Source of the DNA: Halothermothrix sp. | Lineage (GTDB): Bacteria > Bacillota > Halanaerobiia > DY22613 | DNA: 64,000 bases | Assembly (NCBI GenBank): GCA_016841825.1 | Contig: JAENYK010000014.1 | Location: forward strand, 1 to 64,000 | Direction: 5' to 3' | Shown here: piece after piece, positions 744-12,149 of the stretch | How the letters are laid out: the number at the start of each line of letters is the position of its first letter | Position numbering within the stretch: the stretch's first letter is position 1 | The notes under the pieces: generated by a model | Database searches by the model: none | Seen by the model: the letters and a program-made list of their open reading frames with translations, nothing else | What the model was told of the DNA's origin: nothing | Translations under genes and position numbers: made by a program

Positions 744-1344
744 CTGTTTATACCCCCTTATAAGAAATAAGGTGGTTGGTTTAGTTAAGTTAGCATTGTA
801 AGATAAGGACTTCGTAGGTCAAGAGGGAGTTCTAAGAAGGTTATTTCGTCAAGATGAGTTATTACAGTCGGGGTATCTCGTGATGGTAAAAAGTAGGGAA
901 GTCAAAACATATCCTGCCTATCAGTGAACTCGTTCAGCTAAAGCTGAACCTCGGGGCTTCAGATGGAGATTCAACCCCACCTGAAGTAGAACAAGGCAGC
1001 TCTCACTTATAGAAGTGAGAGTCATAGAACTTAGATATATAACTATAATATCATTAAAGGATTTAATTGGCAAGAGTTTTTTGGCATAGTTTCATAAAAT
1101 TTAATATTTTGTCATAGGACAATATTAACAGATTAAATTATTGCTACATCATTTAGATAAATTGCTAAAGCTATAATGGTCTCCTTACGAACCAATCTTT
1201 CTTTCTGTTAATGATTAATTATACAATCACAATCCAGTGTCCATCAAAGTTGAGAATTATTCCCGGAACAGATCAGGTAACAAGGACCACAAAAATCTGT
1301 AAACTATTTTTCATTGTTTCCAGTGAAATTTGTGAATGATCCCT
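744..1344. other. Intergenic stretch with a hairpin element (914-999), no gene seen
   Basis: I see no convincing gene. A 41-codon plus-strand frame runs up to about 924 but has no start signal and no recognisable product. The stretch holds the hairpin element described at 914-999, followed by a further short inverted repeat at about 1001-1021 (CTCACTT...AAGTGAG). The rest is AT-rich. Confidence 0.5.
914..999 (+). repeat. Multi-hairpin element resembling an IS200/IS605 end
   Basis: An outer inverted repeat CTGCCT/AGGCAG (914-919, 994-999) encloses a perfect hairpin GTTCAGC/GCTGAAC (932-949) and a second hairpin CTTCAG/CTGAAG (957-986) with GGAGATTCAACC in its loop. The second hairpin is closely similar to one at 60770-60790. 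Subterminal hairpins with a loop of this kind are typical of IS200/IS605-group ends, and a TnpB relic of that group lies at 18279-18557. No transposase gene is attached here. Confidence 0.4.
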
Positions 1345-2466
1345 CTAAGACTGCTTAATTAAGCGCCCTACTTCATATCGTTGAAAATATTTCAGCGAAC
1401 CTAAATAAAGAATCAAGAATAAACCTATGAGGTAACCTATATATTTACTCAATCTCAATAAAATTGAACCTGTAGACTTTGGAGATCGATCACCAGTGAG
1501 ATATTCTCGGAAAAAGACCATCTCAGGTATAAATAAAGTCTTTTGAATCCGTTGAATTACTGAAGTCGGAGAGAGATAGATTAATTTATCTTCCAATTCT
1601 ACTCCTCCAGCTAAATAAGAAATTACATCTTCCCGATATTTGATCAGACGGTGATGATCATCTTTTATCCTTTCTAAATCTTCGGTGATCTGTCTGTTTT
1701 TTGAAACAAAAGCTAATACCTGATATGATTGGTTTACATATGGTTGAGTTGGAGCATAAGGGTATCTGCTCTGAGAAGTAAAATGAATAATTGATGGCAC
1801 TAAAAAAGAAACCACGATGATGACCAAAAGCATCAAATATCCAGTATTCCGATAATTTTCTAATACAAAATTCAGAATAATAAAAATCAAAAAGAATAGC
1901 ATGATGTATAACCACAAAAATAGTAAACTCAATAACAGAGCAATAAGCAGATCTATTGAAAATCCCCCAGATATTACTGCGTAAAGTATTGCTATAATTC
2001 CATATACTATCACAAAAATCAACCAATATGTACCTCCTGAAAACAGTTTACTTTTATAATACTCAATAATCGTCACTGGACAGGATAGAAGAGAGTTAAA
2101 AATCTTTTCTTCCCTTTCCTTAATTAAAAAGAAATACCCATAGATAATAATCAATAGAGCAACACTAAGTGGCCAGTAATCCGTCAACTCCATATACAGC
2201 AAGATAAAAGTAAACTTCTTTGCTTCATCTTCTGCAAGATCCCAAACCAGGGCATGTTTTAAGACGTTTTCCATCTTATAGATAAATGAACCTGAATTGA
2301 CAACTTTTATCACCGCTGCAGAATCTGATGTTTCATTTAATATTAATTGTTTTGTGTTTGTTGAAGTTATGGCAAAGACACTGATCACAATCAAAGCCAC
2401 TAACATCAAAAGTGTTACTTTTGAAAACAAGCTCCTTTTTAAGTCAAAAAGATAATATTTATACAT
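1345..2466 (-). CDS. ABC-2 type transporter permease (1)
   Basis: A 373-residue membrane protein with one TM segment near residues 15-35, a loop of about 60 residues, then roughly five hydrophobic segments (about 95-115, 140-165, 170-205, 210-230, 345-365). This is the pattern of ABC-2 export permeases of the NosY/NatB type. The protein opens with a basic stretch and ends in the cytosol. Its start overlaps the end of a second permease by 8 bp, and an ATPase gene follows 107 bp further upstream, so the three genes form one exporter operon. The substrate is unknown. The upstream radical-SAM remnant raises the possibility that a modified peptide was once exported. Confidence 0.75.
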   Translation of the reverse strand: MYKYYLFDLKRSLFSKVTLLMLVALIVISVFAITSTNTKQLILNETSDSAAVIKVVNSGSFIYKMENVLKHALVWDLAEDEAKKFTFILLYMELTDYWPLSVALLIIIYGYFFLIKEREEKIFNSLLSCPVTIIEYYKSKLFSGGTYWLIFVIVYGIIAILYAVISGGFSIDLLIALLLSLLFLWLYIMLFFLIFIILNFVLENYRNTGYLMLLVIIVVSFLVPSIIHFTSQSRYPYAPTQPYVNQSYQVLAFVSKNRQITEDLERIKDDHHRLIKYREDVISYLAGGVELEDKLIYLSPTSVIQRIQKTLFIPEMVFFREYLTGDRSPKSTGSILLRLSKYIGYLIGLFLILYLGSLKYFQRYEVGRLIKQS

Positions 2467-3532
2467 CAGATTTGTTAAACCTCCTTATAGAGATTGCATA
2501 TGGCACAATAATCCATAATAAGAATGTCAAATATTTAATTATACTTACTCGAAGAATCTTCTGAAGATTGATCGTCCCAAATGAAACAACCTGTCTGGCC
2601 CAACTTAGATCCAAATAATTAAATTGTGCAGCATAAGGCTGTAAAACCTCGGTAGAAAATTTTGCAAAACTACCGAGTGGATTAATGATATCAATGTAAT
2701 GAATATATCTATACCAACGTTTAACTAGCTGACTTTTTTCCGTAATAGTCAGATCATCGATCTTTTTACCCTCTGCCCAATATTGAATAACACTATATTC
2801 CATCACGTCTATCAACATAGGGATCAGAAAAGTTAATATCAGGAGAATCACAAGAGATTTGACTAAGACATAACCTGAATTACAATCTTTTGTCGATAGC
2901 ATTAACGTTAAATTATAAATAATAAACATAAATATTGAATAAGCACCATTATAACATAAAACCTGAGACAACTGAGTATCAGTAAATTGTATGTTTTTGA
3001 TCGCTGCTAAAAGAAATAGAATTAAACTATACGTAATAAATAATATTATAGACACGCTCAATCCTAGCATTACCTTCGCGTCAAGTAGGTTTTTCTTTTC
3101 AATCGGGCAGGATAAAAAAGTTCTCAAAGTTCCCTTTTCTCGCAGTTCAGATATCTCATTGTGTCCCAGTAATATCATTATAAAAGCACTCATCAAGAAG
3201 AGAAATAACTCATTTCCAACAAGAACATTCGTACTCTCGGGAAGGAAAATATATTTGACAATACCCTGATTTTTATCCGCTCCCCGCATCTCCCATCCTA
3301 AAAACTCCATAAAATAGCTACTTTTTTCAACTGGTTCAGTCAAAGGAATTCTCATAACATGAGAAAACGTTTCATCATACTCAGTTCGTTCATCAATCTG
3401 AACATAGTTATTGATATTCGCATAGACAAAAATGCCATAGAACAAAATCAGCGTCACGAGCGCCATTAGAATCTTTCTGTCTTTTAATAGTTTATATTTA
3501 AAATCTTTGCTGAATAAGTTCAAAGTGATCAC
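2459..3532 (-). CDS. ABC-2 type transporter permease (2)
   Basis: A 357-residue membrane protein with an N-terminal TM segment (about residues 22-40), an extracytoplasmic loop rich in charged residues, and five further hydrophobic segments. The cytoplasmic stretch REKGTLRTFLSCPIEK is closely similar to REEKIFNSLLSCPVTI in the neighbouring permease, so the two permeases are probably diverged paralogues acting as a heterodimer. The start is GTG at 3532 behind a GGAGGTGAG ribosome site. It is transcribed between the ATPase gene (3640-4392) and the other permease. Substrate unknown. Confidence 0.75.
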   Translation of the reverse strand: MITLNLFSKDFKYKLLKDRKILMALVTLILFYGIFVYANINNYVQIDERTEYDETFSHVMRIPLTEPVEKSSYFMEFLGWEMRGADKNQGIVKYIFLPESTNVLVGNELFLFLMSAFIMILLGHNEISELREKGTLRTFLSCPIEKKNLLDAKVMLGLSVSIILFITYSLILFLLAAIKNIQFTDTQLSQVLCYNGAYSIFMFIIYNLTLMLSTKDCNSGYVLVKSLVILLILTFLIPMLIDVMEYSVIQYWAEGKKIDDLTITEKSQLVKRWYRYIHYIDIINPLGSFAKFSTEVLQPYAAQFNYLDLSWARQVVSFGTINLQKILRVSIIKYLTFLLWIIVPYAISIRRFNKSDV

Positions 3533-3639
3533 AATTAACTCACCTCCACATATTTTTAAAATTTGGAGTTGAAAAGTTATGTACTAACTCAATAATCATC
3601 TATCTCAATCCCTTAAGTCATTTTGCAAATACCAATCCG

Positions 3640-4392
3640 TTAATGTCGGGTAAAATAGTCAAGAAACAGTTCTTCGTCAGTCGGATTTATTTCACTGCCC
3701 TGATACTCCTCCTTGAGTTGATTTATGAAATTAATCAGTTCTCCCTGATAGAGCAGACGTCCTTTAAATAATATACCAATAGATGTACATAACTGCATAA
3801 TCTCAGTCAGTTGATGTGAAGAAAAAAGTACTGTCTTCCCCTCAGAAGCAAGTTTTTTAATTAATTTTCTCAGCAGTTCAATTCCTTCAAAATCCAATCC
3901 AGACTGAGGTTCATCCATGATCAGAATCTCTGGCTGGTGGATTAATGCCTTGGCCAAACCCAGTCTTTGTCTCATTCCCAGAGAAAAAGTTTTCACACGT
4001 TGATCTGCAGCATAACTTAATGACACATATTCCAATAGTTCTTCAATTCGCAATTGGATTTTCTTTTTTGTCAGATCATAAAAACTTGCAAAAAACTTCA
4101 AATTATCTCGAGCAGTCATCAGCTCATAAAAACCTGTTCGATCAGGTAAATATCCCAGACTCTTCTTGTGATTTTTCTTATCTTTTGTCACATCCGTATT
4201 GTTAATAAATATTTTACCCTTAGTTGGCTGATAAAACCCATTGAGCATCAAAATTGTCGTTGTTTTGCCAGCACCATTCGGACCGATCAAACCAAAGATA
4301 TCCCCTTCTTTAATCTCTAAATTGAGATTATTTACGACCTTTGTTTCACCAAAATCTTTGCAGAGATTCTCAGTAACAATTATATCTTTCAT
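3640..4392 (-). CDS. ABC transporter ATP-binding protein
   Basis: A 250-residue nucleotide-binding domain with Walker A GPNGAGKTT (about residue 38), signature SLGMRQRLG (about 138), Walker B ILIMDEPQSGLD (about 158) and the switch histidine in FSSHQ (about 192). This is the CcmA/NatA class that energises ABC-2 permeases, and the two permeases follow directly downstream. The start codon overlaps the stop of a possible 32-residue ORF (ATGA overlap), and a GGGAG site lies 8 bases before the ATG. It supplies ATP hydrolysis for an exporter of unknown substrate. Confidence 0.85.
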   Translation of the reverse strand: MKDIIVTENLCKDFGETKVVNNLNLEIKEGDIFGLIGPNGAGKTTTILMLNGFYQPTKGKIFINNTDVTKDKKNHKKSLGYLPDRTGFYELMTARDNLKFFASFYDLTKKKIQLRIEELLEYVSLSYAADQRVKTFSLGMRQRLGLAKALIHQPEILIMDEPQSGLDFEGIELLRKLIKKLASEGKTVLFSSHQLTEIMQLCTSIGILFKGRLLYQGELINFINQLKEEYQGSEINPTDEELFLDYFTRH

Positions 4393-4487
4393 TTTTTCAA
4401 CTCCCGACCTTCTAATGTAACTGCACTTTTAAATTTATAATTTTTAGTTTCTACAAAAAATACTTTTTCCTCCAAAAAACTGGACAT
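4389..4487 (-). CDS. Possible 32-residue ORF coupled to the ABC operon
   Basis: ATG at 4487 lies one base after the stop of the radical-SAM remnant, and the TGA overlaps the ATG of the ABC ATPase. The product is short and charged: it begins MSSFLEEKVFFVETKNYK and ends GRELKK. There is no ribosome site of its own, so translation would depend on coupling. The DNA encoding its first half is present a second time at 8969-9046, where the frame is broken after about 15 codons. It could be a relic of a small gene linked to the radical-SAM protein, or chance. No function can be assigned. Confidence 0.3.
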   Translation of the reverse strand: MSSFLEEKVFFVETKNYKFKSAVTLEGRELKK

Positions 4488-4510
4488 TTTAAATTCTATA
4501 CAGATAAAAA
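4437..4510. repeat. Direct repeat copy A (partner at 8969-9046)
   Basis: About 75 bp nearly identical to 8969-9046 in the same orientation, running from ATAATTTTTAGTTT to CAGATAAAAA on the plus strand. Here it covers the last codons of the radical-SAM remnant and the first half of the 32-residue ORF. The second copy begins exactly in the T-run of a terminator, which suggests duplication with loss of the intervening gene. Confidence 0.75.
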
Positions 4511-4998
4511 TCTTTACCATAGTAAATAGGCCATCCAAAATAATTCACTAACTCTGGGGAATGATCAATAGAACAAAAGAGATTATTGATTATCTTATTA
4601 ATATCATCCCGATCACAATAATTTTTACAGGATATAGGAGGGTTGATTCCATTAATAACCTTATTTCGATATTTAACTACTTCATCTGCATGAGTTAGAA
4701 GCGGAGATGGAATACTCCATCCTATATAGTAGAAACATGGAAACACTCCTAAAGAGGTTAAAACCATTCTCAGATATGCAGCCCAACATAAGGAATAATC
4801 TTTTTCGTAATCCATATTGCATTGATCACAAATATAAGACAATGACTTAGGAGATCAATATACTTGAGAAACAAACTTGCGTTGAAAATGAGAGCCATAC
4901 GAAAATTTTGTTCAGCTAAATATTTCAGAACTTCATCAAATTTAGTATAGAGAGTTGGTGCTTCCCCACCAGTCATTTTGATTCCGCGGCATCCTCTT
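4489..4998 (-). pseudogene. Radical-SAM (SPASM-like) enzyme remnant, truncated and frameshifted
   Basis: Reading from about 4998, the frame shared with the upstream winged-helix gene gives CRGIKMTGGEAPTLYTKF, a radical-SAM core strand with the GGE motif (one extra Ala before the usual PTLY). Near 4845 the homologous frame shifts; the new frame reads SYICDQCNMDYEKDYSLC, then FPCFYY and ISCKNYC, a Cys-rich tail like the SPASM or auxiliary-cluster regions of peptide-modifying radical-SAM enzymes. The N-terminal CxxxCxxC cluster site is missing. It is therefore the back part of a broken gene. Its position before an ABC exporter fits an old RiPP-type locus, which is inference. Confidence 0.55.
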
Positions 4999-6653: not shown

Positions 6654-7451
6654 TTACCCCCCTTGAACTACAGTTCTTTTTAGGATCACTTTCCATAGAA
6701 GCCTGCCGATTAAAAACAAGATCAACACCCAAAAAACTTGAAAAAGCATAGAATGATATATGTTTAATCCGTTTATATCCCTAATGAAAATAGAAAGAGG
6801 GATATAGAAAACACTTTTGAACGGAAGTACATCAAGTATTCTTTGAAGATAACCCGGGAAGATCCAAAGTGGAATCAATTGCCCTGAAAAGAAAGCAATA
6901 ATTCCATGATAGGCATGTAAATACCCACTTAACTCTAAAGTTATAAAACTCAATAGTGCGAAGAGAAAATTTAAACAAAACAGCACTAAATAACCTAAAA
7001 AAACACTTACAAAAAACATGATCACGTGATGCACATCATGAAATAACCTGACATGGAAGAATACACTAGCCACTAGAAAAGTTGGAATCGTGTACAAACA
7101 AAAGTTAAGCAAAGCATTGCTAAAACCACGAACAAACATATGTAATTCAAAATCAATAGGTCGGAAAAGATCTAAAATGATATTTCCTTTTCTAACGTTA
7201 TTGGCAACATAAATATGAGGTCCATCCCACCATGTAAATGTTTGAGATAGAGCTACAGATGCTGTACTATAGGTAAGAATTTGCGGTAATGTAATGGCGA
7301 ATAACTCTCCCTTGGTATCGAATAAAATTGTCCATAACATTGCATAAGCATATATTTTGATAAATGTATTCAATATCGTCATCCAAAATGAAGTTCTATA
7401 CGCTGTCAAAGTATAAAAATGTTGTCGGAAAAAAGCAACTAGTAATCTCAT
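6654..7451 (-). CDS. ABC-2 family transporter permease (COG4587-like)
   Basis: A 265-residue membrane protein with six predicted TM segments. The cytoplasmic stretch NNVRKGNIILDLFRPIDFEL is the counterpart of VDGTFDRFLVRPWNP in the next gene, so the two permeases are related and likely pair. Positively charged N-terminus (RLLVAFFRQHF). The gene lies 15 bp after the ATPase stop and 4 bp before the second permease. The conserved three-gene set indicates an exporter rather than an importer because no binding protein is present. Confidence 0.8.
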   Translation of the reverse strand: MRLLVAFFRQHFYTLTAYRTSFWMTILNTFIKIYAYAMLWTILFDTKGELFAITLPQILTYSTASVALSQTFTWWDGPHIYVANNVRKGNIILDLFRPIDFELHMFVRGFSNALLNFCLYTIPTFLVASVFFHVRLFHDVHHVIMFFVSVFLGYLVLFCLNFLFALLSFITLELSGYLHAYHGIIAFFSGQLIPLWIFPGYLQRILDVLPFKSVFYIPLSIFIRDINGLNIYHSMLFQVFWVLILFLIGRLLWKVILKRTVVQGG

Positions 7452-7466
7452 TCTCTCAGACCTTTC

Positions 7467-8438
7467 TTAGCAGATTTTTTTTACAACTTCTTCAATTCCT
7501 GGGTCAGTTGTAGCAAAATCAATTATTGAATACTGAGTAAATAGGTTCTTAATAATATCTGCAACTGAATTTTTCCTATGGTCAAATCTAAACCATTTTA
7601 TATTGTCTTCCTCTCGAATAATCTCTAAGCACGGAATATGTAAAGAAGAAATATTGTTTCCGAACTCAACTTTTAAAATTCGATGAGAAATATATTTCTT
7701 CTTAACAGTATTCAAATCTCCATCATAGATTTTTTCACCATTATTAATAATAATAATTCTAGAGCAGAGTTCTTCAACATCTTTCATATCGTGTGTGGTT
7801 AATATAACTGTAATCTTCTTCTCCGCGTTGATTTCCTTAATAAACGCCCTCAGTTTTTCTTTAACGCCAACATCTAGCCCAATCGTAGGCTCATCAAGAA
7901 ATAGTACTTCAGGATCATGGAAAAGGGATGCAGCAAGATCACATCTCATTCTTTGTCCTAAACTTAACTGCCGAACCGGTGTATGCATAAGGTTCTTAAT
8001 ATCCAATATTTCAGAATAAAGAGATAAATTCTTTTCAAATTGTCTATCATCAATCTTATATAGTTCTTTTAGTAACCTATAACTTTCAATAACAGGTACA
8101 TCCCACCACAATTGTGATTTTTGTCCAAAAACAACTCCGATCTTCATTGCATTTTTAATTCTGTTTTTATAGGGAATAGAATCGCATACCGTCAACTTGC
8201 CAGCAGAAGGCACGAGCACACCTGTTAACATTTTAATCGTTGTTGATTTTCCTGCTCCATTAGGGCCAATATAGCCTACAATTTCCCCTTTATTAATCGT
8301 AAAATCTAAGTTATTTACTGCAACAATCTCTTTGCACCGGGGGAAAATCAAATTTTGTAAAATATTCACTATTCCCTTTTTCTTTTCATAAACTTTAAAA
8401 ACCTTTGATAAACCCTTCACTTCAATTACAGGATTCAT
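7467..8438 (-). CDS. ABC transporter ATP-binding protein (COG4586-like)
   Basis: A 323-residue ATPase with Walker A GPNGAGKST (about residue 58), signature LSLGQRMRCDLAA (about 158), Walker B VLFLDEPTIGLD (about 178) and switch TTHD (about 210). The insertion VFGQKSQLWWDVPV after the Q-loop and the roughly 75-residue C-terminal extension are typical of the COG4586 group, which works with the COG4587/COG3694 permeases found directly downstream. A consensus sigma-A promoter lies 140 bp upstream (8578-8606). The operon is therefore self-contained. Function beyond export is unknown. Confidence 0.85.
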   Translation of the reverse strand: MNPVIEVKGLSKVFKVYEKKKGIVNILQNLIFPRCKEIVAVNNLDFTINKGEIVGYIGPNGAGKSTTIKMLTGVLVPSAGKLTVCDSIPYKNRIKNAMKIGVVFGQKSQLWWDVPVIESYRLLKELYKIDDRQFEKNLSLYSEILDIKNLMHTPVRQLSLGQRMRCDLAASLFHDPEVLFLDEPTIGLDVGVKEKLRAFIKEINAEKKITVILTTHDMKDVEELCSRIIIINNGEKIYDGDLNTVKKKYISHRILKVEFGNNISSLHIPCLEIIREEDNIKWFRFDHRKNSVADIIKNLFTQYSIIDFATTDPGIEEVVKKIC

Positions 8439-8577
8439 TTTAAAATCTCACTCCCTTTTACATATTATTCATTAATAATTGTATAAACTGAATTCCAACT
8501 TTTTGATTTCCACACCAGCTTAACCAGTATTCACGTTCGAGGCAGACACCTTCTCCATAATGACATGATCTTAATCC

Positions 8578-8606
8578 ATTATAGTTATTTGTTGCCTAAA
8601 TGTCAA
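8578..8606 (-). promoter_or_regulatory. Sigma-A promoter of the three-gene ABC operon
   Basis: TTGACA (8606-8601), 17-bp spacer, TATAAT (8583-8578): a perfect consensus. It drives the ATPase-permease-permease operon with a leader of about 130 nt. The leader has a 41-codon open frame with no start signal (tail GNQKVGIQFIQLLMNNM) whose meaning is unclear. Confidence 0.85.
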
Positions 8607-9041
8607 CACATATATGGATTTTTAAAGTAAAAACGGTTTATATTTTATTTAGTTGTTTTAATTTATTATTTTATGATTTGTAATTTTTTGTCTTTTAATT
8701 ATCCCAAAAAATTTTTTTGTGGCTAAATAGAGCATACAAATTGTAGGTTCATCAATCTACCTAAAAATATCACTGTATTTTAATGATCATGTTCAAGACT
8801 TCTTGAATGCTTATAGCAAAATGAAAATGGTTCTTTCTACAGTTAGTTAAAGCAATTATTTTAAATTTACTTTTTTTTGCAAGTACACTTTACCATTACC
8901 AATATACCGGAATACTTTTCACCTTCCTTCAACTACTAACTCTTTAATTGACCAAAACCTTTGATATCATAATTTTTAGTTTTCCACAAAAAAAAATACT
9001 TTTTCCTCCAAAAAGCCAAACATTTTAAATTCTATACAGAT
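8607..9041. other. Gene-free, very AT-rich stretch between the peptide module and the ABC operon
   Basis: No gene is visible in either direction. The stretch contains repeat copy B (8969-9046) at its right end. The remainder has long A/T runs and no convincing ribosome site, and looks like decayed sequence left after loss of a gene. Confidence 0.5.
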
Positions 9042-9046
9042 AAAAA
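8969..9046. repeat. Direct repeat copy B (partner at 4437-4510)
   Basis: About 75 bp nearly identical to 4437-4510. On the minus strand it begins in the T-run of the terminator at 9042-9075 and carries a broken version of the 32-residue ORF (MFGFLEEKVFF, then a shift caused by extra T residues, stop after about 15 codons). Confidence 0.75.
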
Positions 9047-9075
9047 AAACCCACTTTGATGGGCCATCAAAGTGA
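9042..9075 (-). terminator. Rho-independent terminator of the TPR-peptide operon
   Basis: Stem CACTTTGAT/ATCAAAGTG (9052-9074) followed on the minus strand by eight T residues. It ends the transcript just after the secreted-peptide gene. Confidence 0.9.
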
Positions 9076-9092
9076 GGCGCGGATTTACTCTA

Positions 9093-9224
9093 TTACATAT
9101 CAGGATAGTTAACAATTGTCCTTGTTGGCTCAGTTCCCGGTAATGATCCAGGGTCAGCCCCCACCACTGTACTTCCTAAGAGCAAAATACCCAAGATCAA
9201 TATTACAGATAATACCTTATGCAT
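9093..9224 (-). CDS. 43-residue secreted peptide, possible signalling pheromone precursor
   Basis: ATG at 9224 follows a strong GGAGAGAGGGGGG site; TAA at 9093-9095. The N-terminus MHKVLSVILILGILLLGS is a signal peptide, with a probable cleavage site after VGA, leaving a 20-residue tail DPGSLPGTEPTRTIVNYPDM. The gene begins 21 bp after the stop of a TPR protein and is followed by a terminator. Order, size and composition match Phr- or NprX-type pheromone precursors, which are encoded directly after their TPR receptor. No family match is claimed: the signal sequence and the layout are seen, the signalling role is inferred. Alternatives are a small exported bacteriocin-like peptide or a membrane peptide. 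Confidence 0.7.
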   Translation of the reverse strand: MHKVLSVILILGILLLGSTVVGADPGSLPGTEPTRTIVNYPDM

Positions 9225-9245
9225 TAAGTACCCCCCTCTCTCCTT

Positions 9246-10166
9246 TTATAATTTGCCCCAAAAAGGTGTACCTTTAAAATCTATTTTCACTGCCTCTTTA
9301 AGGGCTTTTAAACGATCTACTTTATAATTATTCATCAACTCATTTATTTTTATCAGAGAATCAAATGCTAATGGATATGTTTCTACATCCTTAAAATGTT
9401 CAAAAGCCAGATACAAGGTATCAAGTGCTTCAAAAAACTGATCCGCTTTTAATTCTGACATAGCCTGAATATAAAAAGCTCTTGCCATTCCCAAACTATC
9501 CTCATATTTGTTAGCTAAAACTTCTGCTTTATGTGTATATTCTTTAATAATAGGAAAAACATCCTCATTCTCAAACATTAGGTAAATTTCTGCAAAATTT
9601 GTGTAAAGATGAGATAAATATTTTTCTTCACAAAATTCTACAGCTTTTTTAAGACTCTCAAGAGCTTGAGTATAGTCTTTTAAGTGATAATAATATAAAC
9701 AGTAGCCATTATAAATCTTCCATTTAAAATTATTCGGTATTATTTTGATATTTTGTACAGATGAATCCAGATATTCTTTGACTTCTTTCAACTTTGCTTC
9801 ACCTAAATGTTCTTTACCAATATGTAAATATAACCAAATTAAGTTCAAGTAGGTCTCGGTAAGCAATTGTTTATTTTCCCTTGTTTTCTGCAAAATTTCA
9901 ATAAATGTTTTCCTTGCTTGGTTAAATTCACCCACATAACCCAATGATACTCCATAATAAGATTTTAGTTTTAAACTTTCTTCCCCAGAACAATATTCCA
10001 ATGGAATCTTGATATACTCTATAACTTTTTTATGTTGAGAAAAGCTAAAATACCCTTTTGCCTTTAAAAAAGAAACTTTGGCCAATTCCATTTCATTGCC
10101 TTCAGCTAAAAGTTCTGCTTTGCTAATATTCGACAAAAATTCTGGAAAATCCTTTGCTTCTATCAT
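9246..10166 (-). CDS. TPR-repeat protein, Rap/RRNPP-like candidate peptide receptor
   Basis: A 306-residue all-helical protein. Successive 35-40-residue repeats can be read: SYYGVSLGYVGEFNQARKTF, ETYLNLIWLYLHIGKE, YNGYCLYYYHLKDYTQALES, LYTNFAEIYLMFENED and ARAFYIQAMSELKADQFFEA. There is no signal peptide and no DNA-binding domain in this frame, unlike PlcR or NprR and more like Rap phosphatases. The gene after it encodes a small secreted peptide. The ATG at 10166 has no ribosome site; a 17-codon frame with a good site lies directly upstream, separated by one in-frame TAA. Whether the protein binds the peptide and what it controls cannot be read from sequence. Confidence 0.7.
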   Translation of the reverse strand: MIEAKDFPEFLSNISKAELLAEGNEMELAKVSFLKAKGYFSFSQHKKVIEYIKIPLEYCSGEESLKLKSYYGVSLGYVGEFNQARKTFIEILQKTRENKQLLTETYLNLIWLYLHIGKEHLGEAKLKEVKEYLDSSVQNIKIIPNNFKWKIYNGYCLYYYHLKDYTQALESLKKAVEFCEEKYLSHLYTNFAEIYLMFENEDVFPIIKEYTHKAEVLANKYEDSLGMARAFYIQAMSELKADQFFEALDTLYLAFEHFKDVETYPLAFDSLIKINELMNNYKVDRLKALKEAVKIDFKGTPFWGKL

Positions 10167-10220
10167 TTATTTAGCTGCAATACAAAAATTTTGTACTCCA
10201 ATTGTAGAAGTCACTCCCAT
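10167..10220 (-). other. 17-codon upstream ORF in frame with the TPR gene (leader peptide or lost N-terminus)
   Basis: ATG at 10220 with an AAAGGGG site about 10 bases before it encodes MGVTSTIGVQNFCIAAK and stops at TAA (10169-10167), immediately followed in the same frame by the ATG of the TPR protein. Since the downstream ATG lacks its own site, either the short ORF couples translation or the TAA is a nonsense change that removed the N-terminus of the receptor. Confidence 0.55.
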
Positions 10221-10262
10221 CCTATATTGACCCCTTTCCACTTAAAATATTTATTCATTTCA

Positions 10263-10291
10263 AGTATATCATATATCTATAGGAAATTCAA
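10263..10291 (-). promoter_or_regulatory. Sigma-A promoter of the TPR-peptide operon
   Basis: TTGAAT (10291-10286), 17-bp spacer, TATACT (10268-10263). Transcription would start near 10256, about 36 bases before the 17-codon upstream ORF. Confidence 0.8.
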
Positions 10292-10818
10292 TAATATTTT
10301 ATATTTAAAGGAAAATATGGATTTATAATGTTTAAATGCGTTTTCCCTTATTTTTTAATATTTTTCATAGTTGTTCTTTTTCAAATAAAAAATTATTATC
10401 TTGTAAAGGTTGTGCGAGTCATGCATTAACAATATTACTTGAATGTGTACAATTGATAAATAGCTTTACTCAATTTTGATAGATACTCGAACATACTCTT
10501 GTAACATCCTGAAGTTTGTTTATCCGCAAAATTACTTCGTTTCTGCTGAACCAATTACTGGTACATCAAATTCAATAAGTCCACATATTCCCCTTTTTAT
10601 TCTGCTTATATAGATAAAAGCTATAGTTCTATAATCAAGATATCGTTTCTGTACTCGTACCCTTTTCGCCTGTTTTTATTTTGTTATAGTTTTTTCAACA
10701 AGTCAGACTCATATTAGGAGTCATTCATCACCCGTTCGTAAAGCAAATTCTGTCACTCAACATTCATATCCTCAGTCACTTCCATCGGGCAACTCCTTAT
10801 TGAGATGGCAATTCCCAC
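10292..10818. other. Gene-free stretch between the methyltransferase and the TPR operon
   Basis: AT-rich sequence with stops in all frames at short intervals. I see no gene, RNA or clear hairpin terminator. It separates two differently organised groups and could include regulatory sequence for the TPR promoter. Confidence 0.5.
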
Positions 10819-11574
10819 CTATACCTTCCTCACCACATAGTAAACCCGCTCCGACTCCTCACTTCCGGGAAATAAGGAGTAAGAATCATATTTTCTCTCT
10901 ATCGCAAATCCAGCATCTCCAAGTAGACCTTCAATCACCTGTAAGGAATAGGCTCGTTCAACATGGACCTCATCTTCCCGGTACATCTCATCATTCTCTG
11001 TTTCAATGAAAAAAGTCAGATAGACCTTCCAATAGGGAACTTCTGGCTCCAGTACATCTTTCCAGAAACAGTAATAACCTTCTTCTTCAAAGATCTTCCG
11101 ATTATCAAGAATCGTCCTCAGACGCTTGACAGTATTCATGTCAAAAATAAAATACCCACCTGGAACCAACGCCCGATGCACCTGTTGAAAAGCCTGGTTC
11201 AGATCTTTTTCTTCCAGAAGATAGTTCAAACTATCATATAGACAGATCACTAGATCTTGAGGCTCTGGAACAGTAAATTTTCGAAAATCTCCTTGAGAGA
11301 AAGGGATATTAAATCCTGCTTTTGCAGTCTTTTCTTTAGCTACATCAATCATCTGATGCGAACCATCTATCCCTATCATCTGATAACCCTGTTTAGCTAA
11401 TAAAAGAGTCATATTACCTGTTCCACAGGCCAAATCCAGAATCTTCTCAGGTCGATAACCAATCTCCCGAAAGATTAACTCCAGATATTCTAACCAATCA
11501 TCATAGGGAACATTTGACATGATATCATCATAGAATCGTGCAAAAACCGTATACGACTGTTTCTTTTTCACCAC
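10819..11574 (-). CDS. Class I SAM-dependent methyltransferase
   Basis: A 251-residue protein beginning YTVFARFYDDIM, with motif I ILDLACGTGNMTLLLA (about residues 42-57), the acidic loop GIDGSHQMIDVAKEK, and the post-motif DLVICLYDSLNYLLEEKDL. It matches the widespread Methyltransf_25/UbiE-like small-molecule methyltransferases of Firmicutes whose substrate is unknown. The start is GTG at 11574 (a second GTG at 11571) behind GAGGTG. It is transcribed last in a run of GNAT genes 20 bp downstream of one of them and so may share their transcript. Confidence 0.85.
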   Translation of the reverse strand: MVKKKQSYTVFARFYDDIMSNVPYDDWLEYLELIFREIGYRPEKILDLACGTGNMTLLLAKQGYQMIGIDGSHQMIDVAKEKTAKAGFNIPFSQGDFRKFTVPEPQDLVICLYDSLNYLLEEKDLNQAFQQVHRALVPGGYFIFDMNTVKRLRTILDNRKIFEEEGYYCFWKDVLEPEVPYWKVYLTFFIETENDEMYREDEVHVERAYSLQVIEGLLGDAGFAIERKYDSYSLFPGSEESERVYYVVRKV

Positions 11575-11594
11575 TTTACACCTCGGTCACTGGT

Positions 11595-12149
11595 TCAATA
11601 AGATCTTTCAAAAGGATAGCGCTGAAAATAATCTTCTTTAAAGATCGCCATTACATACTCTCCCCAATATCGCCCATCTTTAAAAACGGAACGCCGCACA
11701 TAACCTTCTTTTTTGAAACCAACTTTCTCATAAGCATTGATCGCCCGTTCATTATATTCATAAACCTCTAAAGCTACTCTCCGTAAATTATGTACACGGA
11801 AGACGTAACCCAAAAAAAGAACTAATGCTTCACTACCATAACCTTGACCCCAGTATTCCTTATCTCCAATATAGATACTTAGATCACCTTTACGACTCCT
11901 GACAGAGATTCCCTGGACACCTACTAATCCAATTGGTTTTTCTTTATCAGTAGTATAAATCATGAACATCTTCTCATCCGACTTACTCTGCAAATCGTCA
12001 TACCATTTCTCTAACTTTCTCATCGGAGTCGGATTAACCACCCCGGGCCAGATATATTTAACCAGATCAATATCGTTCATCCAACTATAAATATGTGGCA
12101 AATCCTCAGTCTCTATTGGCCTGATGTACACCTTATCACCTGTCATCAT
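11595..12149 (-). CDS. GNAT N-acetyltransferase, RimJ/RimL type
   Basis: A 184-residue single GNAT domain. It opens with VYIRPIETEDLPHIYSWMND, has the acetyl-CoA loop EYWGQGYGSEAL (about residues 97-108) and the C-terminal NERAINAYEKVGFKKEGYVR block, all features of the RimJ/RimL and SpeG-like Acetyltransf_3 family. The ATG overlaps the TGA of the preceding GNAT gene by four bases, so the two are translationally coupled. The substrate, a protein N-terminus, polyamine or antibiotic, is unknown. Confidence 0.85.
   Translation of the reverse strand: MMTGDKVYIRPIETEDLPHIYSWMNDIDLVKYIWPGVVNPTPMRKLEKWYDDLQSKSDEKMFMIYTTDKEKPIGLVGVQGISVRSRKGDLSIYIGDKEYWGQGYGSEALVLFLGYVFRVHNLRRVALEVYEYNERAINAYEKVGFKKEGYVRRSVFKDGRYWGEYVMAIFKEDYFQRYPFERSY

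Follow-up and report, generated by a model that had tools for sequence, protein, structure and literature searches.

A TPR protein and secreted peptide gene pair with a damaged receptor start, a member of an expanded, putative receptor-pheromone family

Gene arrangement at the locus

The window analysed here is the whole 64,000 nt stretch of DNA, and the locus lies on its minus strand, with the following features in order of transcription.

10263..10291, minus strand: promoter TTGAAT-17-TATACT with a TG-extended -10 element, the same motif being found family-wide
10239-10231, minus strand: ribosome site GGAAAGGGG of the receptor gene, preceding ATG 10220
10167..10220, minus strand: interrupted receptor N-terminus, ATG 10220 followed by 17 codons (MGVTSTIGVQNFCIAAK) and an in-frame TAA (10169-10167), from ungapped alignment to intact paralogues
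9246..10166, minus strand: TPR-only receptor, 306 aa in its present form, with matches to TPR-type families and an all-helical TPR model
9231..9245, minus strand: ribosome site AAGGAGAGAGGGGGG of the peptide gene, G-rich and in the same place in other pairs
9093..9224, minus strand: propeptide of 43 aa, consisting of the signal peptide MHKVLSVILILGILLLGSTVVGA and the tail DPGSLPGTEPTRTIVNYPDM; such an ORF lies at -3..+53 nt in 19/24 family receptors
9050..9076, minus strand: intrinsic terminator, a hairpin with a 12-bp stem, 3-nt loop and T8 run (RNA fold z = -3.0)

The elements reported in the initial annotation, namely the promoter, the TPR-only protein, the 43-residue secreted ORF with its ribosome site and the terminator, are all present. 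The peptide ORF starts 21 bp past the TPR stop codon and carries a VGA cleavage box immediately before its tail. It has no match to any Pfam or NCBIfam family. Among the 57 long ORFs of the window, the receptor is the only one followed by a signal-peptide-like short ORF at -10..+60. The ABC exporter operon noted next downstream is real in so far as ABC-2 genes are found at 8438-5853, but a functional link to the pair is unsupported, as they lie ~600 bp beyond the terminator. The exporter was rejected as a partner for this reason, and because a comparable two-permease operon occurs near only one other pair (L070); exporter genes are not a general neighbour of family members.

Judged singly, the window promoter is no better than chance, since 11 such sequences were found in this AT-rich region against 8.2 expected in random sequence. 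It becomes credible because the motif recurs before family members: TTG-N17-TGnTATA(A/C)T is present upstream of 14/15 of them, in both genera that carry the family, compared with 1/507 control genes, although paralogues of common ancestry are not independent events in such a count. The sequence flanking the motif has diverged among family members.

The start of the receptor gene is damaged. Its homologues begin at a position corresponding to ATG 10220, and in the window this frame is broken by a TAA inside helix 1. Ahead of ATG 10166 the reading frame encodes MGVTSTIGVQNFCIAAK*, which matches the starts of the paralogues residue by residue, the TAA occupies the position of a helix 1 residue in these proteins, and the family profile match continues through the stop, counting one TAA. 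Since ATG 10166 directly adjoins the TAA and has no ribosome site, production of the 306-aa protein needs re-initiation. Intact paralogues are ~320-345 aa long; the closest are 44-45% identical to the window receptor, which groups with L007 in the tree (93/92, not starred). Damage is also seen elsewhere, with an internal TAA in L017 and truncations in L014, L016, L023 and L024.

These broken copies, together with the stop in helix 1 and the lack of a ribosome site at the next ATG, could mean that the family consists of true receptor-pheromone pairs but that the window copy is a relic in decay, its receptor function ended by the stop codon and at most its peptide gene still functional. We take this possibility seriously but do not favour it, as the remaining receptor frame is open for 306 codons and is confidently modelled, and the promoter, ribosome sites, peptide and terminator are all intact. 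The adjacency of TAA and ATG would also permit re-initiation, and the stop itself is possibly a sequencing error. The window locus is a genuine member of the expanded, putative receptor-pheromone family, with a damaged receptor start.

A multiplied family of receptor and peptide genes

About 20 close homologues of the receptor, counting fragments, are present in the window genome (G000), and a further four in G001, a genome of the same family but a different genus, assembled as one contig of 3.56 Mb. One fixed rule was applied to all genes in the fetched regions (ORF of 30-75 aa, start at -10..+60, basic N-terminus, hydrophobic core and ribosome site), and by this rule a secreted peptide ORF lies directly downstream of 19/24 homologues, compared with 6/528 non-family genes. 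The associated Fisher p of ~1e-25 is indicative only, because the family had already been inspected once when the rule was fixed. Three of the six control matches come from two TPR genes and an HTH gene that adjoins a TPR gene, which puts the real background below 6/528. Looking for the pair in related genomes and aligning the tails, as proposed in the initial annotation, bore out the arrangement, with signal parts that are alike and tails that have diverged. Receptors lacking a peptide ORF, which had been seen as a potential argument against it, do occur alongside the 19 that carry one, and comprise four receptors of one tandem array and one fragment. The array (L063, contig C14 of genome G000, 6718-11854) has five receptor genes and a lone peptide gene behind the first receptor; it holds one complete pair only, so a single peptide is shared by five receptors at the most.

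Given how widespread TPR genes are, and how often AT-rich DNA contains short ORFs, the receptors might be considered ordinary TPR proteins followed by chance or untranslated ORFs. Such an explanation is scarcely credible in view of the pairing frequency relative to control genes, and of the ribosome sites, starts, signal parts and cleavage boxes that the downstream ORFs have in common.

Searches of whole genomes give the firmer basis for distribution. Strong matches were confined to the window genome and G001 (2/59) among genomes of the class, a third genome giving one weak generic TPR match, and a phylum-wide search likewise found strong matches in 2/398 genomes. Contig scans and searches of plasmid, phage and viral-contig collections returned zero relatives, a result that says little about distribution.

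Two closely similar ORFs (MVNNSSA..YTDYDRMFKQL...; L062:1553-2629 and L064:10917-11861), transposase- or nuclease-like by eye, adjoin TPR-peptide pairs and are a possible vehicle of pair duplication. Genome G000 also has 114 matches to NRPS condensation domains, a very large nonribosomal peptide repertoire. The pairs L065 and L066 adjoin NRPS genes, and a rough estimate shows no clear excess of such neighbours that would mark NRPS clusters as a target.

Nearly all propeptides have an MKK-like start, a single hydrophobic stretch and a box of V-F/L-A or A-X-A type, followed by 14-37 residues; the signal peptides were called from hydropathy and the cleavage box. The tails can be sorted loosely into two groups, DP..PG...T.(I/V)(I/V) and (I/V)VTT..P.PD.(D/E). 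Alike signal parts combined with divergent tails are as would be expected of pheromones. Distances between receptors and between their tails are correlated (Mantel r = 0.295, p = 0.006; r 0.376, p 0.011 within the window genome only), as would be expected if pairs had been duplicated as units, a correlation that does not prove binding.

The diversity of the tails would also suit a secreted peptide that is a separate product, for example a small antimicrobial, with the TPR protein acting alone or as a cytoplasmic partner or immunity protein, and the evidence joining the two genes consists of adjacency and co-inheritance. We consider this unlikely. The tails are short, often acidic and Pro-rich, and nothing in them evidently points to a bacteriocin. 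Genes for modification or dedicated export do not recur beside the pairs, and the layout and sizes fit RRNPP systems. In addition, the distant relatives L110 and L091 show tandem-repeated tails of the kind carried by known pheromone precursors. In L110 (2619-2969), a 116-aa secreted ORF with near-repeats of DPQNGGD(E/D)PF lies upstream of a distant TPR gene and looks like a multi-copy pheromone precursor. The ORF of L091 (3173-3385) contains GPIQKPV and GPIQRPV, a single copy of each.

Receptor structure and comparison with known systems

Above family cut-offs, the 306-aa protein matches TPR-type families only, and Pfam TPR_12 is found in 18/19 members. Neither RapH_N nor any HTH family was among the Pfam matches of the members, and the intact paralogue L007 (326 aa) has no room for an HTH. 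Both proteins are predicted to be all-helical TPR structures (pLDDT 90.8 for the window protein and 92.7 for L007), and the L007 model has one extra N-terminal helix (10-22) and is otherwise TPR from end to end. The absence of a DNA-binding domain, as initially annotated, therefore holds.

The models superpose on NprR (5dbk, Z 22.4-23.1; rmsd 4.2 over 289 at Z 23.1), RapI (4i1a, Z 22.1; 3.7 over 261) and RapJ (4gyo, Z 21.8), and the window model on AimR (5y24, Z 18.5). Eukaryotic TPR proteins do as well or better (TSK, Z 26.7; LGN, Z 24.1), so the fold match is unspecific and permits, rather than demonstrates, RRNPP identity. A sequence search of solved structures likewise gave generic TPR proteins only. 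The window model matches mainly the TPR domains, beginning near residue 57 in most Rap chains and residue 122 in NprR. The resemblance to Rap and NprR in the initial annotation does not extend beyond this domain, as the family has no N-terminal effector domain, and membership of either group is ruled out by the absence of both a three-helix bundle and an HTH in intact L007.

Among the described systems, Rap-Phr of Bacillus shares with the window family the lack of an HTH, a TPR superhelix, a Sec propeptide just downstream, numerous paralogues and orphan receptors. Rap proteins differ in having an N-terminal three-helix bundle, which is their phosphatase or anti-activator domain, whereas the window family has neither the bundle nor a RapH_N match. 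In NprR-NprX the TPR domain superposes and the receptor precedes the propeptide, but NprR has the HTH and three-helix bundle that are missing here. The arbitrium receptor AimR is likewise a peptide-sensing TPR protein, and a distant Mu-like prophage version of the window family sits in a repressor operon (see below); AimR, however, has its own HTH, and here the HTH is a separate protein. AloR-AloP of the Paenibacillaceae, with up to 40 receptors of which 27 have peptides, is similar in its large paralogous expansion, immediately downstream peptide and degenerate members, and differs in lineage and in the HTH of AloR (PMC7425212).

The signature used by RRNPP_detector is a receptor of 250-500 aa with TPRs and a propeptide of 10-100 aa at -60..400 bp with a Sec signal (PMC10075063). 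At the window locus, the receptor has 306 aa (~320-345 when intact) and the propeptide of 43 aa lies at 21 bp, with its signal recognised from hydropathy and an A-X-A box. These sizes and spacings, together with the pairing across the family, are in keeping with the RRNPP receptor-pheromone layout first proposed.

The lineage was said to be one in which few such pairs are described, which is right, but a computational candidate already exists. From RRNPP_detector output, the main text of Moi et al. (2025) describes an HTH-less RRNPPA candidate subfamily, number 17, in Anoxybacter fermentans (PMC12700828). As described there, it resembles the window family in combining an HTH-less TPR receptor with an adjacent propeptide, and A. 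fermentans belongs to the Halanaerobiales, the order inferred also for the window genome. G001 could be A. fermentans, in which case the window family is probably the published subfamily 17. That main text has nothing on copy number, the promoter, the lack of an effector domain, HTH genes next to the pairs or a version in prophages, and the literature searches turned up no experiments on systems of this kind in Halanaerobiales. New here are the copy number, the common promoter, the occurrence of Cro/CI-type HTH genes as separate neighbours of several pairs, and a distant version within the repressor operons of Mu-like prophages.

Proposed signalling and candidate partners

In two genera, a single transcription-unit layout has been co-inherited, with the family promoter, a TPR protein and a Sec-type propeptide directly downstream. 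The locus is probably one copy of a multiplied RRNPP-type receptor-pheromone unit, in which binding of the peptide by the receptor is predicted. Following the RRNPP pathway, the propeptide would be exported by Sec and cut after the A-X-A box, and a short C-terminal piece, in the window copy within TRTIVNYPDM, would re-enter the cell via one of the genome's oligopeptide permeases and bind the inner, concave surface of the TPR receptor it is paired with. The ten strong SBP_bac_5 oligopeptide-binding proteins of the genome indicate no more than the possibility of import. Because the receptor has neither a DNA-binding nor a Rap-like domain, it would exert its effect by contacting another protein, the likeliest target being a separate regulator, for example one of the neighbouring Cro/CI-type HTH proteins described below. 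The window receptor would lack helix 1 and be made, if at all, by re-initiation, and its intact peptide gene could still signal to paralogous receptors. If this is true, one cell would hold a heavily expanded peptide-signalling repertoire of ~15 pairs, and receptors with no known output domain raise the question of what a bare TPR sensor acts on. Neighbouring HTH genes and Mu-like prophage operons supply concrete candidates for such a partner.

Cro/CI-type proteins of ~170-175 aa are encoded within ~0.6 kb of receptor genes at several loci in both genomes, including a truncated copy at L066 in addition to those listed.

L063, 6149-6676: Cro/CI-type HTH gene
L074, 8463-8987: Cro/CI-type HTH gene
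L075, 8955-9479: Cro/CI-type HTH gene
L077, 8744-9256: Cro/CI-type HTH gene, G001
L079, 11207-11716: Cro/CI-type HTH gene, G001
L122, 1486-2007: Cro/CI-type HTH gene, G001

Strong matches of one HTH family lie this close to receptors in 4/5 cases in G000 and 3/6 in G001, and smaller HTH proteins (68-89 aa) are encoded near four loci. The Cro/CI-type neighbours are possible DNA-binding partners acting in trans. Such a partnership is only a lead, because members of that HTH family are also found on their own (L117, L119, L120 and L121) and most pairs, including that of the window, have no HTH gene nearby.

A distantly related version of the module was found in two Mu-like prophages.

L089, contig C35 of G000, 848-4663: Mu-like prophage
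L090, contig C4 of G000, 836-4659: Mu-like prophage

Both carry a MuA-type transposase (on the C35 copy, Pfam DDE_2, Mu-transpos_C and HTH_Tnp_Mu_2), accompanied by a ner-like HTH gene, and a divergent operon with the order Cro/CI HTH, secreted peptide of 65-68 aa and TPR receptor of 306-311 aa. No relative was detected in the phage or viral collections. By analogy with arbitrium, the operon suggests that a peptide may control lysogeny. More broadly, and tentatively, the family could represent a split form of RRNPP signalling, in which effector-less TPR receptors would each sense a private peptide and control separate Cro/CI-type HTH regulators, and in which the same module, placed in Mu-like repressor operons, would let a peptide set lysogeny and allow cross-talk between prophage and chromosome; we would sooner doubt than adopt this extension. 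The tail of the prophage peptide, DPGIVSTNAPGFDDDEE, resembles the chromosomal tail DPIVTTSNWPGFSED of L022.
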